Shown here piece after piece: positions 223 through 17,910 of a stretch of DNA of 20,605 bases. Every line of letters starts with the position of its first letter. The first letter of the stretch is position 1. Origin of the DNA: a virus; the IMG/VR virus record IMGVR_UViG_3300008450_000590, positions 1 through 20,605 of that record; one strand, written 5' to 3'. Both the position numbers and the translations under genes were made by a program. The notes beneath the pieces are model-generated. The model searched no databases. It was not told the origin of the DNA and worked only from the letters and a program-made list of their open reading frames with translations.

Positions 223-750
223 ATGCTTTACATAGTAACGCCCTGCTCAAGACCTCAAAACCTTGTAAGGATAAAACACGGCATCCCGGAGTACGCTACT
301 TGGGTGGTAATGGTGGATGCATCTACCGATTTCAAGGGAGCAACAGGCGCATCCATCACTCACTACTCTACACGCTCCGGCTCTTGGGGACATCCCCTAC
401 GCAATGAGTTCCTTGAATTGCACAGAGACTCCTTTACCAAAGAGGATTGGGTATACTATCTGGATGATGATAACATCCTGCACCCAAAATTTATCGAAGA
501 GTGGGGCAACCTGCATAACCTCGACTGCTCTATTGTGACGTGGGGACAAGTTGGAAGGCTACGCCCTACCGACCAACCAAGAGTCGGCAACATAGACACC
601 GCCTGCTATATGTTTAAGCCGTATGACCTACCGAACCTCCGCTTTGAAACGAGCTACGAGGCCGATGGTATCTTCGCAATGGAGGCAGCAAGGATTGGAT
701 CACTTATCTGCGTAGATCAGCCCCTCTGCTACTACAATGCGTTAAGGTGA
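223..750 (+). CDS. GT-A fold glycosyltransferase
   Basis: Probably transfers a sugar from a nucleotide-sugar donor to an unknown acceptor. The 175-residue protein opens with a beta strand ending in VTPCSRP (residues 5-11), has a second strand WVVMVDAS (27-34) and carries DDDN at 81-84 after WVYYL, the acidic metal/nucleotide-binding motif of GT-A enzymes. The pattern VTP...SRP with a later DDDN resembles GT43 and related GT-A enzymes as well as GT2; I cannot choose between them. It is short, so a catalytic domain with no anchor. The stop overlaps the GTG of the HNH gene. Acceptor could be phage DNA, a virion protein or a host surface glycan; the nearby Mom-like gene makes DNA worth considering, but that is inference. 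Confidence 0.75.
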   Translation: MLYIVTPCSRPQNLVRIKHGIPEYATWVVMVDASTDFKGATGASITHYSTRSGSWGHPLRNEFLELHRDSFTKEDWVYYLDDDNILHPKFIEEWGNLHNLDCSIVTWGQVGRLRPTDQPRVGNIDTACYMFKPYDLPNLRFETSYEADGIFAMEAARIGSLICVDQPLCYYNALR

Positions 751-1010
751 AAAACCATACGAAGGTCTATCTAAAGGCATTTAACTACACCACAACTGAC
801 TTCATAGCCTGCGAGGTATGTGGAGCGCAAGCGCAGGACATCCACCATATAGAACCCAGAGGGATGGGAGGGAGCAAGATCCGGGATAACATCGAGAATC
901 TTATGGCATTATGCAGGACTTGCCATCACGAGGCTGACTTCGGAACCAATCTAAAGAAAGACTACCTTTACGAGGTTCACAACCACCATCTATCAAAAAG
1001 AGTTATTTAG
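747..1010 (+). CDS. HNH endonuclease
   Basis: An 87-residue protein starting at GTG 747 and overlapping the preceding stop by four bases (GTGA). It has the full HNH signature: a zinc-binding CEVC (22-25), DIHHIEPRGMGG (31-42) with the catalytic His pair, DNIENL (47-52) and CRTCHHEA (56-63) with the second Cys pair and final His. Small free-standing HNH nucleases encoded near terminase genes are known to assist cleavage of concatemeric DNA during packaging in HK97-like phages. Here terminase lies about 1.2 kb downstream, so that role is plausible. An alternative is a homing-type nuclease, but the even spacing and coupled junction do not suggest a recent insertion. Confidence 0.88.
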   Translation: MKNHTKVYLKAFNYTTTDFIACEVCGAQAQDIHHIEPRGMGGSKIRDNIENLMALCRTCHHEADFGTNLKKDYLYEVHNHHLSKRVI

Positions 1011-1012
1011 TT

Positions 1013-1546
1013 ATGCAAAGAGCAGCAATCGGTACAATACTACTAAACCCGAGTAATCCCAGAATCATTAAGGATGACAAGTTTAAGAAGCTGGTCAAGT
1101 CAATACAGGAGTTCCCACAGATGCTTGAGCTTCGACCTATCGTAGTAGATAGCAATATGGTAGTGCTTGGTGGGAATATGCGCCTTAAAGCCTGTATTGC
1201 CGCAGGACTGAAGGAAGTACCCATCATTGTAGCGGATCAGCTTACGGATGCACAGAAGGGGGAGTTCATTATCAAGGACAACGTAGGGTTCGGAGAATGG
1301 GATTGGGACTTACTCGCCAACGAATGGGAACCCGATGCTCTTATCGACTGGGGATTAGACCTCCCTATTTTAATGGATGAGCCTTCATACGATGAATTGA
1401 TAGGGGATGAAAAGGGAAATCCTCCTACTATGAAAATAACCTTCGATAGTCCGGAGCAGTTACAAAAAGCGGAGATAGACATACAAGAGCTTTTAGATAG
1501 AAAATATCAAGGGGCTTATTTTTCAGTTAGCGCAGGGGGGATATGA
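1013..1546 (+). CDS. ParB/sulfiredoxin-like domain protein
   Basis: The first ~75 of 177 residues form a ParB/Srx-like fold: NPSNPR (12-17), a helix, LRPIVVD (40-46), then the phosphate-binding motif GGNMRLKA (53-60) and AAGLKEVPIIV (63-73). The GxxR core is the site that binds or cleaves nucleotide triphosphates in ParB, noctin-like and DndB/Srx-type proteins. Residues 75-125 match the DNVGFGEWDWDLLANEW-type segment that often follows ParB domains in phage proteins encoded beside DNA methylases. The C-terminal ~50 residues are not recognised. Its stop overlaps the start of the Mom-like gene (ATGA at 1543), so the two are probably made together and may both act in DNA modification. It is not a partition protein in any obvious sense, since no ParA is present. 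Confidence 0.8.
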   Translation: MQRAAIGTILLNPSNPRIIKDDKFKKLVKSIQEFPQMLELRPIVVDSNMVVLGGNMRLKACIAAGLKEVPIIVADQLTDAQKGEFIIKDNVGFGEWDWDLLANEWEPDALIDWGLDLPILMDEPSYDELIGDEKGNPPTMKITFDSPEQLQKAEIDIQELLDRKYQGAYFSVSAGGI

Positions 1547-2172
1547 GATTAGAGATTGCCTCAAGTAAGGCGATTAAATACGCTTGTCTGAACTTTCATT
1601 ATGCAAAAGTTTGCCCGGTTGTCGGAATTGCTTTTTCTGTTTTTAACGATAAAGAGGAATGGTGCGGAGTTATTACTTTCGGATATGGGGCATCAGCTAA
1701 TATGGGTAAACCATATAAACTAAATCACGGGCAATACCTCGAGCTTACTCGTATGGCCCTAAATTCTAAACAAGAGAGTACGAGCAAAGCAATGTCGATA
1801 GCAATGCGCTTAATCAAAAAGCTTTGCCCGACAGTAAAACTTTTAATATCGTATGCCGACAAAGGACAGAATCACAAGGGTATTATTTATCAAGCGACAA
1901 ATTGGTTTTTAGTAGATGAATCCGAATCAAGCGGTTTTGAGGTATGGTATAAAGGAAAGTGGGTACACGACCGGGGGCCAAACACGCTACCTAAAGAGCA
2001 AAGAAAAAAATTAACCTACCGCAAAAAGAGCGGAAAGTATAAATATGTTTATCCGATTGATAAGGCGTTAGTCGATATGTGCAAGAAGTTGTCTAAACCA
2101 TACCCTAAAAAAGAAACCCCGACAAGCGGGGCTACTTTGAGCGAGGGGGTCGAATCGAACGCCACTTCTTAA
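1543..2172 (+). CDS. mom: Mom-like DNA modification protein
   Basis: Resembles the Mu Mom family of GNAT-fold enzymes, which convert adenine in phage DNA to an N6-acetamido (methylcarbamoyl) form and so protect it from restriction enzymes. Family-like segments are GYGASANMGKPYKLN (47-61), LELTRMALN (66-74), a helix with SKAMSIAMRLIKKL (81-94), and ISYADKGQNHKGIIYQATNW (102-121). The 209 residues are somewhat shorter than Mu Mom. The Lys/Arg-rich stretch 152-168 suits DNA contact. Its start overlaps the ParB-like stop. It is visibly more AT-rich than its neighbours, suggesting later acquisition. The last ~25 codons (from about 2100) are read through an antisense terminator and tRNA-like gene, so this tail was probably recruited and may be dispensable. 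No Mu Com-like translational activator is seen. Confidence 0.8.
   Translation: MRLEIASSKAIKYACLNFHYAKVCPVVGIAFSVFNDKEEWCGVITFGYGASANMGKPYKLNHGQYLELTRMALNSKQESTSKAMSIAMRLIKKLCPTVKLLISYADKGQNHKGIIYQATNWFLVDESESSGFEVWYKGKWVHDRGPNTLPKEQRKKLTYRKKSGKYKYVYPIDKALVDMCKKLSKPYPKKETPTSGATLSEGVESNATS
2105..2131 (-). terminator. Rho-independent terminator of the antisense tRNA-like gene
   Basis: Read on the minus strand, CCCCG (from 2131) pairs perfectly with CGGGG (to 2117) around a 5-base loop and is followed directly by TTTCTTTTTT. It begins 9 bases after the tRNA-like discriminator base. On the + strand the hairpin is preceded by A and lacks a T run, so it should not stop mom transcription. It lies wholly inside the mom coding sequence. 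Confidence 0.75.
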
Positions 2173-2210
2173 TTGGAATACTAAGTGTGCAACCATAACA
2201 CTTCCCTCGC
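2140..2210 (-). tRNA. tRNA-Gly(UCC)-like gene, antisense to the mom 3' end
   Basis: On the minus strand a cloverleaf can be drawn. Acceptor stem GCGAGGG pairs with CCCTCGC for 7 perfect base pairs, followed by discriminator T, the base usual for bacterial tRNA-Gly. D arm: stem GTGT/GCAC around TATGGTT with the GG pair. Anticodon stem CTTAG/TTAAG around TATTCCAA, which places TCC after a T and before A. T loop TTCGATT. The D arm follows the same GTnTnATGGTnnnAC pattern as phage T4 tRNA-Gly, as I remember it. Departures: the anticodon loop has 8 bases, the T stem needs a bulged A (GGCG/CG-A-CC), position 8 is A and 14 is T, and the 3' end continues CAA rather than CCA. It could be functional, a frameshifting tRNA, or a decayed tRNA-like RNA. 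CCA would have to be added enzymatically. Confidence 0.62.
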
Positions 2211-2214
2211 AAGT

Positions 2215-2245
2215 TAAAGATACAACAAACAAACAAATGGACAAA
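2215..2245 (-). promoter_or_regulatory. Bacteroidota-type promoter for the antisense tRNA-like gene
   Basis: On the minus strand TTTG (2245-2242) is followed after exactly 19 bases by TATCTTTA (2222-2215). The Bacteroidota primary sigma consensus is TTTG, about 19 bases, TAnnTTTG; only the last base differs. The expected start point falls at about 2210-2211, which is the first base of the tRNA-like acceptor stem, so the transcript would need little or no 5' trimming. The -33 element lies inside the first codons of the small terminase gene. Confidence 0.6.
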
Positions 2246-2575
2246 ACGGAACAACATAAAAAGGCGATGCTCGATGCTTTGGAGAAATCTTTAGGCGTAG
2301 TTACCTCTGCCTGCAAGACGGTGGGCGTAGGTCGTACTACGCACTACCTCTGGATGCAGGAGGATAAAGAATACAAAGCAGCAGTCGATGAACTATCAGA
2401 CGTAGCAATTGACTTTGCAGAGAGCCAACTACATAAGCAGATAAAGGAGGGCAACTCAACTGCTACTATCTTTTTTCTAAAGACCAAGGGCAAGAAGCGT
2501 GGATACATAGAGAGGCAAGAGGTAGATATCCAGACCCCGAAGCTATTTCAGATAGAGGTGCTTGGCGAAGATTGA
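2237..2575 (+). CDS. terS: Small terminase subunit
   Basis: A 112-residue protein directly before the large terminase. An N-terminal helix-turn-helix spans about residues 20-43 (VVTSACKTVGVGRTTHYLW), followed by a helical segment rich in acidic residues (44-75) suited to oligomerisation, then FFLKTKGKKRGYIER (80-94) and a short C-terminal tail. In such phages the small subunit forms a ring that recognises the packaging start site and passes DNA to the large subunit. The ATG at 2237 is preceded by an A-rich leader with no Shine-Dalgarno sequence. The gene overlaps terL by 14 bases. The 64-base gap before it carries the antisense promoter and the 5' half of the tRNA-like gene. Confidence 0.82.
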   Translation: MDKTEQHKKAMLDALEKSLGVVTSACKTVGVGRTTHYLWMQEDKEYKAAVDELSDVAIDFAESQLHKQIKEGNSTATIFFLKTKGKKRGYIERQEVDIQTPKLFQIEVLGED

Positions 2576-3719
2576 GACCAATAAGGTATTTGGCCACCTA
2601 AAGCGAAGCACTAAAAAGATAGTAGTCGAGCAGGGCGGTACCCGTAGCGGAAAGACATACAATATCCTGCTATGGATCATATTCCATTACACGGATAAGA
2701 ACGAAGGCAAGACCATCACGATCTGCCGTAAGACGTTCCCTGCGCTCCGGGCTTCTGTTATGCGGGACTTCTTTGAGATCCTCCGGAACCACGACATATA
2801 CAATGAGATCTACCACAACAGGTCGAATAGCGAGTACTACCTAAATGGGAACCTTGTGGAGTTTATCAGCCTTGACCAACCCCAGAAGATAAGGGGGCGC
2901 AAGCGCAACCTCCTGTACATTAACGAAGCCAATGAGCTGACGTACGAGGACTGGCAGCAGCTCATAATGAGGACCGAGGATCGTGCGATACTTGACTACA
3001 ACCCTTCGGATGCGTTCCATTGGATTTATGATAAGGTCGTACCGAGGGATGACTGCGACTTTTTTCAGACCACGTACCTCGACAATATGTTTTTAGATCA
3101 GAGCATCAAGGATGAAATCCTACGGCTCAAGGATACGGATAACGACTACTGGCGTATCTATGGTCTGGGGGAAAGGGGTATGAGTAGAGCCACGATATTC
3201 CAGTACGGGCAGTCCGAGATACCAACGGATGCAAAGCTCTTATCATTTGGCCTTGACTTCGGGTACACGAATGATCCCAGCGCACTGGTTGCAGTATATG
3301 AGGCAAACGGAAGCCTTTACTTTGATGAACTGCTATACCGCACGGGGATGACCAATAACGATATCGCAAATATCTTTACCTCCATCGGTATCGATAGGCG
3401 CAGCGAGGTATATGCTGATAGCGCAGAGCCCAAGTCAATCGAGGAACTATACCGAAGGGGCTACAATGTAAAGCCCACGACCAAAGGCCCCGACTCGGTG
3501 AACGCAGGAATCGATATAATGAAACGCTACAAACTATTTATCACTCCCCGGAGCATCAATCTTGAAAAGGAGATGCGTAACTACAAATGGACGGAGGATA
3601 AAAATGGAAACCTCCTTAATAAGCCTATCGATGCTTTTAACCACGCAATCGATGCTGCGAGGTATGCTATCTTTAGCAAGAAAAATAATCCTAACTTTGG
3701 CAGATATTCTGTAAGATGA
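2562..3719 (+). CDS. terL: Large terminase subunit (ATPase and nuclease)
   Basis: The 385-residue DNA packaging motor, close to the PBSX/Terminase_3 type in length and layout. The ATPase half has Walker A GGTRSGKT (25-32), an adenine-side CRKTFPALRAS segment (55-65), Walker B LLYIN followed by catalytic Glu (117-122) and a DYNPSDAFHW coupling segment (145-154). The nuclease half has metal-binding Asp residues in GLDFGYTNDPSAL (230-242), YADSAEP (284-290) and DAFNHAIDAARYA (357-369). The start is TTG at 2562, inside the end of terS; no ATG or GTG lies between there and the Walker A motif, so TTG is the best choice. Its stop overlaps the next ATG. Confidence 0.96.
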   Translation: MAKIETNKVFGHLKRSTKKIVVEQGGTRSGKTYNILLWIIFHYTDKNEGKTITICRKTFPALRASVMRDFFEILRNHDIYNEIYHNRSNSEYYLNGNLVEFISLDQPQKIRGRKRNLLYINEANELTYEDWQQLIMRTEDRAILDYNPSDAFHWIYDKVVPRDDCDFFQTTYLDNMFLDQSIKDEILRLKDTDNDYWRIYGLGERGMSRATIFQYGQSEIPTDAKLLSFGLDFGYTNDPSALVAVYEANGSLYFDELLYRTGMTNNDIANIFTSIGIDRRSEVYADSAEPKSIEELYRRGYNVKPTTKGPDSVNAGIDIMKRYKLFITPRSINLEKEMRNYKWTEDKNGNLLNKPIDAFNHAIDAARYAIFSKKNNPNFGRYSVR

Positions 3720-15401: not shown

Positions 15402-15899
15402 ATGATTTTCTTATCATATAACGCCCAGCAGGATATCACCTTGCCAATCCGTGACTGGAAGTACGGCAACGATGACCTGACGAACTACGGAGACTACTGG
15501 CGAATACAGGCTAAGTTCGTAAATAAAGACACGAGAGAGGTCATTACCTATACTCTGGTGAGCCCGTCTTTTGATGAAGACACAAGGGAGCTTACCTTTG
15601 AGTACAATAGCGCAACACTTGATCCGGAAGTACCATATATTCTACGCCTCGAAGACCAGAGGTATGCAGCAGGAGTCGCTAACCAATACGAGGATAGGGT
15701 GATTGCGGATTCAGGGACAATCGAAGCACTTGGGTGCGTTACGACAGAGCTTACGGCTTTAGGGGTGGATGATGCGAAGGTGCTGACCATTGACAAAATT
15801 TATATGCTGCCGAGTGGTGGCACAATCGATAACTATCAACCTGTGCTGCAGACTACTGAGCGCACTATGAACAATGACTTTGTGATCTATGGCGAATAA
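15402..15899 (+). CDS. Structural protein with one RVxxDGGT/Cys motif
   Basis: A 165-residue protein, mostly beta strands in residues 1-90 (LSYNAQQDITLPIRDWKYG, EVITYTLVSP, TRELTFEYNS, PYILRLEDQRY), then a copy of the recurrent motif at 99-121 (RVIADSGTIEALGCVTTELT, nt 15696-15764) followed by strands VLTIDKIYMLP. I do not know the family. The N-terminal part could be an Ig-like or BppU-like domain of the kind found at the start of receptor-binding or baseplate proteins. It overlaps the portal start by 11 bases. Because the same motif occurs in two other presumed tail proteins, I favour a tail or host-contact role over a head role despite the position beside the portal. Confidence 0.55.
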   Translation: MIFLSYNAQQDITLPIRDWKYGNDDLTNYGDYWRIQAKFVNKDTREVITYTLVSPSFDEDTRELTFEYNSATLDPEVPYILRLEDQRYAAGVANQYEDRVIADSGTIEALGCVTTELTALGVDDAKVLTIDKIYMLPSGGTIDNYQPVLQTTERTMNNDFVIYGE

Positions 15900-17910
15900 T
15901 ATCCGACTAATCAATCTGGCCTCCTATACCACGCCACAAATCAGCGAGAACCCTCGCTTGAGTTGGGTGGAGTATGGCGATGACAATCAGTTTTTCAACT
16001 ACCTTATCGATATGGCTAACGGCTCCCCTACGAATAACGCAGTTATTACGGGGATCGTGGATATTATCTACGGCAAGGGAATCGATGCTTCTAACTCTGA
16101 TGCTAACCCATCCGGGTATATCGAGCTGCGTAGGCTTATCCAGCCGGAACAACTGAAGAGGGTCGTTAATGACTTCTATATGCTTGGCAATGCAGCGTTC
16201 CAGATTATATATACGGCTGACAAGAGCAAGATAGCGGAGGTATATCATATCCCGGTTGAAACGCTGAGGGCAGAGAAGTGCAACGATGAGGGAGAGATCG
16301 AGGCATACTATATGGCGTATGACTGGAGTAAGGTTCGAAATAAGAACCAAGCGGAGCGCATCCCTGCTTTTGGATATGGAGCAGCATCCGACAAGGTAGA
16401 GATCCTTTACATTCGCCCGTATCGGAGTGGCTCATATTACTATTCACCGGTCGATTACCAAGGCGGGCTTCCATATGCAGAAATGGAGCAAGAAATTGCC
16501 AACTACCATATCAATAATATCAAGAACGGAATGGCTCCGTCTATGATTATCAACTTCAATAACGGCATCCCTCCACAGGAAGAGCAGGACAATATCGACT
16601 CTGCCATTAAGTCGAAGTGGAGCGGTAGCAATAACGCAGGCAAGTATATCCTCGCTTTCAATGATGATAGCCAAAAGGCTGCTACTATCGAGCCCGTTAC
16701 TTTATCGGATGCCCATTTGCAGTATGAGTTCCTTAGCAGCGAGAGTACGAGCAAGATTCTGGTATCCCACCGAATCACCTCACCTATGCTCTTCGGGGTA
16801 AAGGATAGCGGTAACGGATTGGGCAGTAATGCGGATGAAATTAAGAATGCTTTTAATTTGCTCGACAACACGGTGATCCGACCTAAGCAGGAGCAGATCG
16901 CTGCTGGTATCGATATGATTCTTGCGTATAACAAAGTAAGCCTTGACCTTTACTTTAGGTCATTGACTCCTGCGGAGTTTGCTGATGTCAAAGAGGTGGG
17001 CGATGAGGTAGTTATTGAAGGGGCTCCGGTTGCAGATGTAAGCGAGGCATCGGAGGATCTTATCAAAAAAGATGCATCCTACAACGGAGCGCAGATCGCA
17101 AGCTCTCTGGATATTATGAGAGCCGTCACGGAGGGAGTGCTTACGCAAGACCAAGCGATTACGTTCTTAGTCCAGATGCTACAATTTGACCCACAGGTAG
17201 CGCAGGCTCTTTTCGTGGGTAACTCTTCTGCCGTTATTACGCAGATGAAATCGCAAAAGGGGGGAAGGGATGGCCTCCCTTTTCTGATGGAGGAGCTTGC
17301 TGCTGAACTGGTAGCAAAGCTTCAAAATATCGGAGAGAGCGAAGAGGAACTGCTTAGCGACTATGATATGGTCGATTCTGAGATAGTCGATAGCGAGGAA
17401 GATGAATACGATGTCGAGGCATACCTAAACTCACGTACTGAACTTGTAGCGCAGGATCCCAGCGAGCAAGATTCGAATAGATATAAGGTACGTTACTTCT
17501 ATGCCGTTGGCGCTATTGCAAATAAAAACCGCAATCCGGGCCCAAGCAGAACCCTATGCCGTAGCCTTATCGCTGCTAAGAGAGTATATCGGATGGAGGA
17601 CATCAAGGAACTAAGCTCTAACGGGGGCGCAGAAGCGCAGGGAGCCTCTTACAGCGTTTGGTTGTACAAGGGTGGGGCTAACTGCTACCATCGCTGGGAA
17701 CGTAGGGTATATCGCAAGAAACTCACGAAGGATGGCGAGATCTATGGAGGGGGCACTTTGAATGGCACGACTATCATTAACGTAAACGAAGCGGTACGTC
17801 AAGGATTCAAGCTACCCAAGAACCCAAAGGAGGTCGCTATCGCACCTATCGATTCGGACTACCAAGGCTATACTCCTGCTTACGCTCAGAGTAAAGGGAT
17901 ACCCAAATAG
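15889..17910 (+). CDS. Portal protein with C-terminal extension
   Basis: Residues 1-~480 look like an HK97/PBSX-type portal: LSWVEYGDDNQFFNYLIDM near the start, NNAVITGIVDIIYGKGI, the wing segments VVNDFYMLGNAAFQIIY and AEVYHIPVETLRAEK, EIANYHINNIKNGMAPSMII and the crown-side SKILVSHRITSPMLFGVKD with RPKQEQIAAGIDMIL. The portal is the dodecameric ring at the head vertex through which DNA passes. Residues ~480-525 are a very acidic linker. From ~530 to 673 comes an additional domain with KVRYFYAVGA, SRTLCRSLIAAKRVYRMEDI, YSVWLYKGGANCYHRWERR and a Gly-rich end. I recall this domain from other Bacteroidota phage head proteins but do not know its function. Portal position, far to the right of terL, is unusual. 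Confidence 0.82.
   Translation: MANNIRLINLASYTTPQISENPRLSWVEYGDDNQFFNYLIDMANGSPTNNAVITGIVDIIYGKGIDASNSDANPSGYIELRRLIQPEQLKRVVNDFYMLGNAAFQIIYTADKSKIAEVYHIPVETLRAEKCNDEGEIEAYYMAYDWSKVRNKNQAERIPAFGYGAASDKVEILYIRPYRSGSYYYSPVDYQGGLPYAEMEQEIANYHINNIKNGMAPSMIINFNNGIPPQEEQDNIDSAIKSKWSGSNNAGKYILAFNDDSQKAATIEPVTLSDAHLQYEFLSSESTSKILVSHRITSPMLFGVKDSGNGLGSNADEIKNAFNLLDNTVIRPKQEQIAAGIDMILAYNKVSLDLYFRSLTPAEFADVKEVGDEVVIEGAPVADVSEASEDLIKKDASYNGAQIASSLDIMRAVTEGVLTQDQAITFLVQMLQFDPQVAQALFVGNSSAVITQMKSQKGGRDGLPFLMEELAAELVAKLQNIGESEEELLSDYDMVDSEIVDSEEDEYDVEAYLNSRTELVAQDPSEQDSNRYKVRYFYAVGAIANKNRNPGPSRTLCRSLIAAKRVYRMEDIKELSSNGGAEAQGASYSVWLYKGGANCYHRWERRVYRKKLTKDGEIYGGGTLNGTTIINVNEAVRQGFKLPKNPKEVAIAPIDSDYQGYTPAYAQSKGIPK

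Follow-up and report, generated by a model that had tools for sequence, protein, structure and literature searches.

A tRNA-Gly-like RNA tied to the DNA modification gene mom, a probable non-decoding, dedicated glycine donor

The virus record IMGVR_UViG_3300008450_000590, analyzed here over 20,605 nt (the window), encodes at the end of its mom gene a tRNA-Gly-like RNA that, on comparative evidence, is very probably a phage-encoded tRNA dedicated to donating glycine to the DNA modification enzyme Mom. The RNA belongs to a large, unlisted family that is tied to Mom, and the presence of its relatives beside mom across phyla suggests that it exists to give Mom glycine, not to make protein. We consider it fairly likely that these relatives, encoded by phages and bacteria of many phyla, make up a distinct and so far unlisted class of tRNA-Gly that does not decode. 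Its mark would be the invariant bulged A in the T stem, its sole task would be to provide a DNA-modifying enzyme with glycine out of reach of EF-Tu and the ribosome, and some of its members comprise little beyond an acceptor-T-arm unit.

All the phage genes named in the window lie on the plus strand (Table 1), and a nucleotide search of the whole region against named phages gave no match. Near the DNA modification cassette, the segment 3716-4636 matches the glycosyltransferase family PHROG 7162, and the segment 223-750 matches nothing in Pfam or PHROG. The elements that a first-pass annotation had read from the minus strand, namely TTTG-N19-TATCTTTA, a cloverleaf with 7/7 acceptor pairs, a discriminator T and a CCCCG/CGGGG terminator, are all present. 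The cloverleaf proper takes up 70 nt (2210-2141), followed by the discriminator at 2140, and its anticodon loop has 8 nt (TATTCCAA). The coordinates also agree with the statement that the RNA covers the last 11 codons of mom (10 sense codons and the stop) and that the terminator lies entirely within that gene, and the promoter overlaps the start of terS. The RNA appears buried in mom because the Mom domain stops at base 2109 and the last ~20 residues (190-209) are a read-through tail; the Mom proteins of many relatives are 188-195 aa long. A Mom C-terminus conserved as protein alongside lost cloverleaf pairing had been named as the pattern that would speak against the unit, and the relatives display the opposite.

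Table 1. Features of the window discussed in the text.
Feature	Position	Strand	Basis or remark
HNH gene	747-1010	+	
ParB-like/nuclease domain gene, directly 5' of mom	1013-1546	+	PF02195
Mom-family GNAT-fold DNA modification enzyme gene (mom)	1543-2172	+	PF25680, PHROG 1384, AlphaFold2
Intrinsic terminator, hairpin 2133-2115 and T-rich tail	2105-2133	-	7-pair CCCCG/CGGGG; similar hairpins in many antisense relatives
Mom-linked tRNA-Gly-like RNA, 71 nt including discriminator U73	2140-2210	-	Direct reading, covariance model, relatives
Acceptor stem of the RNA	2210-2204/2147-2141	-	7/7 pairs
D stem of the RNA	2201-2198/2190-2187	-	
Anticodon arm of the RNA	2185-2168	-	UCC at 2177-2175
T arm of the RNA	2163-2148	-	
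Bulged A, 3' side of T stem (position 63)	2150	-	Unpaired in 48/48 aligned relatives; flanking pairs covary
-7 promoter element TATCTTTA	2215-2222	-	Bacteroidota consensus TAnnTTTG, one mismatch; position kept in antisense relatives
-33 promoter element TTTG	2242-2245	-	19 nt from the -7 element
Small terminase gene (terS)	2237-2575	+	
Large terminase gene	2562-3719	+	
Portal gene	15889-17910	+	

The expectation that such a unit would be easily missed was borne out, since ARAGORN and Rfam report no tRNA at this locus. ARAGORN finds 0 tRNA genes and Rfam returns no tRNA match for the RNA stretch even at E<=10; both tools miss the RNA because its T arm is non-canonical. The near-matches to asX2 and AaHKsRNA20 in Rfam fall mainly on the terminator hairpin and were discarded. 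Our covariance model (R1) scores the window RNA at 80 bits, with an identical copy (L002) in its training set, and single-sequence folding is only moderately better than that of shuffled sequences (z -2.5).

The protein beside the RNA is a member of the Mom family. It matches PF25680 over the whole domain (E=2.1e-34, residues 4-189) and PHROG 1384 (E=8.1e-51), and its AlphaFold2 model (pLDDT 91) has Mu Mom (8bv8) as best PDB match with a TM score of 0.76, followed by acetyl-CoA-dependent GNATs. The Mom set lacks the GNAT pyrophosphate-binding motif R/QxxGxG/A at the corresponding loop, the only regular-expression match being located elsewhere. This loop reads QESTSK or SESR and holds a serine (S81 in the window, conserved in 43/46) with which Mu S124 aligns if 8bv8 follows the annotated numbering; the title of that entry names the S124A mutant as inactive. 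Judged from model and alignment, a Mom loop devoid of the CoA motif is compatible with a donor that is not coenzyme A.

The fold of the RNA was evaluated on an alignment of 48 diverse copies, in which 99.6% of the cells are paired under a cloverleaf with a bulged T stem. Double-sided changes occur in 18 of its 20 pairs, none of 500 shuffles does as well, and sliding the partners destroys the pairing signal; these compensatory changes support the cloverleaf. RNAalifold, given no prior answer, arrives at this bulge as well and closes the anticodon loop with one further pair; under a canonical 5-bp T stem, pair 51-63 is absent in 48/48 copies. The bulged A is constant and the pairs next to it vary (GG/CC, AA/UU, GA/UC, AG/CU, and CC/GG in the Chloroflexota copy L267); flanking bases this variable speak against a Mu-type target site at the bulged A, and we rejected that idea. 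At some AT-rich loci a free structural scan lacking T-arm constraints chose incorrect folds, and the covariance model took its place. The bulge is seen in 84/84 relatives, 74 of them first gathered with a GG..ACC filter that introduces a selection bias, versus 0/11 ordinary tRNA-Gly from bacterial genomes carrying Mom, all of which are canonical. The other 10 sequences and the copies found by ARAGORN have the same bulge, and the remaining bias is addressed by the Mom-first R1 search and the motif-first search reported below. The bulge is not universal, because the tRNA-Gly genes at two actinobacteriophage Mom loci (L220:3595-3665 and L282:2654-2725) have an ordinary T stem; these may possibly represent an independent recruitment.

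The association with Mom was quantified from the protein and from the RNA. Searching IMG/VR with the window Mom yielded 57 loci of the window branch (Mom-A), 42 of which carry the RNA beside mom on either strand (41 by R1 and L048 by descriptor); a weak R1 match in L041 is a non-Gly tRNA. A search with a distant Mom branch (Mom-B) added 79 further loci, all 79 with the RNA at mom according to R1. In almost every relative at close or intermediate distance, a tRNA-Gly(NCC)-like sequence on one strand or the other reaches the stop codon of mom. Starting from the RNA, 76 viral stretches matched the T-arm motif GGCGTTCGAATCGACC; 67 of these fold tRNA-like, with Mom within 300 nt in every case, and the remaining 9 are without Mom. 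For the motif GGCGGTGCRANTCCGACC, 74 of the 80 matches examined are tRNA-like, and Mom is in the locus for 73 (within 300 nt for 69), the single exception being located ~90 b from a contig end. With both motifs pooled, Mom shares the locus with 140/141 tRNA-like matches and lies within 300 nt of 136. Many metagenomic loci are near-copies, and these counts therefore refer to loci rather than to independent events.

A control based on the terminase points in the same direction. Of 80 terminase loci from the window lineage, 4 have Mom, and each of these carries the RNA; the others lack an intact copy. By these linkage counts and this control, the RNA is a tRNA gene tied to a modification enzyme. 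In two terminase relatives (L060 and L070) the antisense unit is kept at 93% DNA identity and mom has been swapped for one of the distant branch, the product of which is still a PF25680 member (E=1.6e-43 in L060). The slot 5' of the small terminase gene is an exchange site in the window lineage (L062-L138). In non-Mom phages it is occupied by methyltransferase-like genes (for example in L064, L076 and L081, assigned by motif only) or by other genes, and since these phages fill the slot with other genes, the RNA travels with Mom and not with the slot. A 38-bit, remnant-like match in a terminase relative without Mom (L120:3545-3614) looks like a copy decaying after mom loss. On the Mom tree the RNA label is clustered (14 changes versus 44 when shuffled), but these change counts were not used because the automatic label missed about 19 RNA-carrying loci.

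The family extends well beyond viral metagenomes. Bacterial Mom loci with the RNA occur in Bacteroidota, Acidobacteriota, Chloroflexota, Bacillota, Pseudomonadota (Tolumonas and Nitrosomonas) and one Desulfuromonadales genome. In 297 Bacteroidota genomes, strong R1 matches appear only in Taibaiella, adjoining Mom. Among cultured phages, Salinibacter B2_17 has an annotated tRNA-Gly, with the bulge, ~33 nt after Mom; in Microbacterium phage Appa an annotated tRNA-Gly(ccc) lies antisense right after ParB-Mom, the gene order ParB-Mom-tRNA-Gly being that of the window; and Arthrobacter phage BarretLemon carries an unannotated copy over the mom end. In several Chloroflexota loci (L264, L265, L267, L268, L270, L271 and L272) the RNA is placed 5' of mom, one genome having several copies. 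The bulged element was sought and not found at the Mom loci of Mu, Yersinia, Serratia and Paenibacillus, and Mu, ICP1, A511, PM87 and phiEf11 have no bulged copy; likewise, the Mom-bearing phages of Listeria, Proteus, Vibrio (ICP1) and Enterococcus show no such RNA. Mom thus does not need the RNA in every host, because Mu and many other Mom phages lack it. Some further candidates were set aside: the R1 matches in L259 and L261 fall on host tRNAs of the ordinary kind, L508 (A511) is an ordinary tRNA-Gly and L511 a non-Gly tRNA.

What the RNA retains and what it has lost bear directly on its function. In alignment A2, G1-C72, C2-G71, C35, C36, A37 and U73 are invariant. The pairs G1-C72 and C2-G71 together with U73, C35 and C36 form the identity set of E. 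coli glycyl-tRNA synthetase, and the RNA has this set in full. It lacks the features of an elongator tRNA-Gly, that is, a canonical T stem, a 7-nt anticodon loop with U33 and detection by tRNA models; such a loop is found in only 10/84 relatives and is absent in 74/84, and the host tRNA-Gly controls (n=11) are normal. Given the glycine identity and the loss of decoding features, charging with glycine is expected and decoding is not. CCA is encoded in 69/99 copies of one set, and usually so outside Bacteroidota. The anticodon loop has been lost in two Bacillota copies (L227:6062-6131 and L237:1719-1788), which have a 3-nt loop and no anticodon and retain the acceptor, U73, the bulged T stem and an encoded CCA. 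Copies of 65-66 nt without a D arm (L048:1235-1299, L240:6561-6625 and many of L388-L507), which recall reduced mitochondrial tRNAs, likewise retain acceptor, U73 and bulged T stem. No tRNA besides this RNA was found in the viral records sampled.

The expression layout differs between orientations. The consensus TAnnTTTG lies <=30 nt upstream of 25/43 antisense copies versus 5/41 sense copies, against a background of 1.3%, and since it is mostly found upstream of antisense copies, the antisense form appears to supply its own promoter. A two-box promoter match is present in 17/43 antisense relatives, and a hairpin with a T run follows many of them. Copies in sense probably share a transcript with mom. 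The earlier reading of a tRNA-Gly-like unit complete in itself, with its own promoter and terminator, is thereby upheld in the relatives. Its emphasis on antisense placement is not, for relatives carry the RNA in sense after mom or, in Chloroflexota, before it; the antisense placement is incidental. The features that are kept, and that the first-pass annotation had missed, are the linkage to Mom, the glycine identity and the bulged T stem.

Mu Mom places a glycinamide on adenine N6, yielding N6-carbamoylmethyl-adenine, and EF-Tu contacts the T-stem positions at which the bulge lies. It seems reasonable to postulate that the RNA is transcribed by the phage, that CCA is added by the host where it is not encoded, as it is in many relatives, and that host glycyl-tRNA synthetase would charge it through the acceptor end GCG...CGC-U and anticodon bases C35-C36. 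With a bulge at EF-Tu contact positions the charged RNA should escape translation, an evasion that we infer from the position of the bulge; together with the non-standard anticodon loop, it would make for poor use by EF-Tu and the ribosome and leave the charged RNA free. Mom would then take the glycyl group to adenine N6 of phage DNA, which may mask restriction sites and so benefit the phage. Chemically, N6 might attack the glycyl ester, the product rearranging to N-CH2-CO-NH2. The principle of Mom using a charged tRNA is prior work, being the title of a 2023 preprint on Mu Mom by Silva et al. that a 2025 review cites (PMC12707154); an older prediction for the Mom donor was glycyl-CoA (PMC7824862). 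As far as literature searches reach, a dedicated, remodelled mom-linked tRNA family is undescribed, and the preprint of Silva et al., known by its title, may mention mom-linked tRNA genes.

Four other explanations were weighed against a glycine donor. The RNA could be a Mom partner of another kind, serving as decoy, as inhibitor or as RNA substrate to hold the toxic enzyme in check, the bulged A mimicking a flipped target adenine. Near-exclusive linkage to Mom, an invariant unpaired A and the toxicity of artificially expressed Mom (PMC12707154) would all suit such a role; we regard it as unlikely, since it leaves unexplained the glycine identity elements, the encoded CCA and the canonical T stems of the two actinobacteriophages. 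Regulation by antisense pairing, of mom or of the neighbouring terminase gene, is suggested by the window itself, where the RNA is antisense to the mom tail and its own promoter overlaps the terS start. Most window-branch relatives are in sense, though, the Chloroflexota copies lie upstream of mom, the RNA can persist when mom is exchanged (L060 and L070), and selection acts on the cloverleaf and not on complementarity, which makes this reading very improbable. An ordinary phage tRNA-Gly, for GGA/GGG codons or as a replacement of a cleaved host tRNA, would account for the cloverleaf, the UCC anticodon and the glycine identity elements, and is hardly probable at all in view of a T stem bulged in 84/84 relatives, a standard loop in 10/84, canonical controls, relatives without an anticodon loop and a linkage to Mom only. 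A chance fold or decayed tRNA pseudogene, to which the silence of ARAGORN and Rfam and the modest z-score might point, is refuted by strong covariation, cross-phylum conservation and Mom linkage.

Read as a glycine donor, the RNA invites comparison with three known systems. Compared with Rfam RF00005, it shares the cloverleaf, the 7-bp acceptor stem and the tRNA-Gly anticodon, but its T stem is bulged, its loop often has 8 nt or lacks U33, and its D arm or anticodon loop is sometimes lost. The non-proteinogenic tRNA-Gly of staphylococci, with weakened EF-Tu and ribosome features, feeds glycine to FemXAB for the cell wall. Both would be dedicated tRNA-Gly donating glycine to a GNAT-fold transferase; FemXAB, however, belongs to another transferase family and acts on peptidoglycan, whereas the Mom-linked RNA would serve a DNA adenine target, is phage-borne and has the T-stem bulge. 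Mu Mom (8bv8, S124A) is of the same family (PF25680) as the window protein and its closest PDB match, and, going by the title that PMC12707154 cites, would have in common with it a charged tRNA as co-substrate. Mu differs in encoding no such RNA, and presumably uses host Gly-tRNA, while the tRNA of the window is encoded with mom and remodelled.

If this reading is correct, Mom modification has a genetically encoded co-substrate, and the family lends independent comparative support to the charged-tRNA mechanism. After cell-wall synthesis, it would also be the second natural instance in which a tRNA-Gly is withdrawn from translation to supply glycine, here for DNA chemistry. In practical terms, the T-arm motif locates Mom loci and gives hardly any false positives, and the stripped-down forms lacking D arm or anticodon loop would make the parts of a tRNA required for charging, EF-Tu avoidance and donation directly testable.
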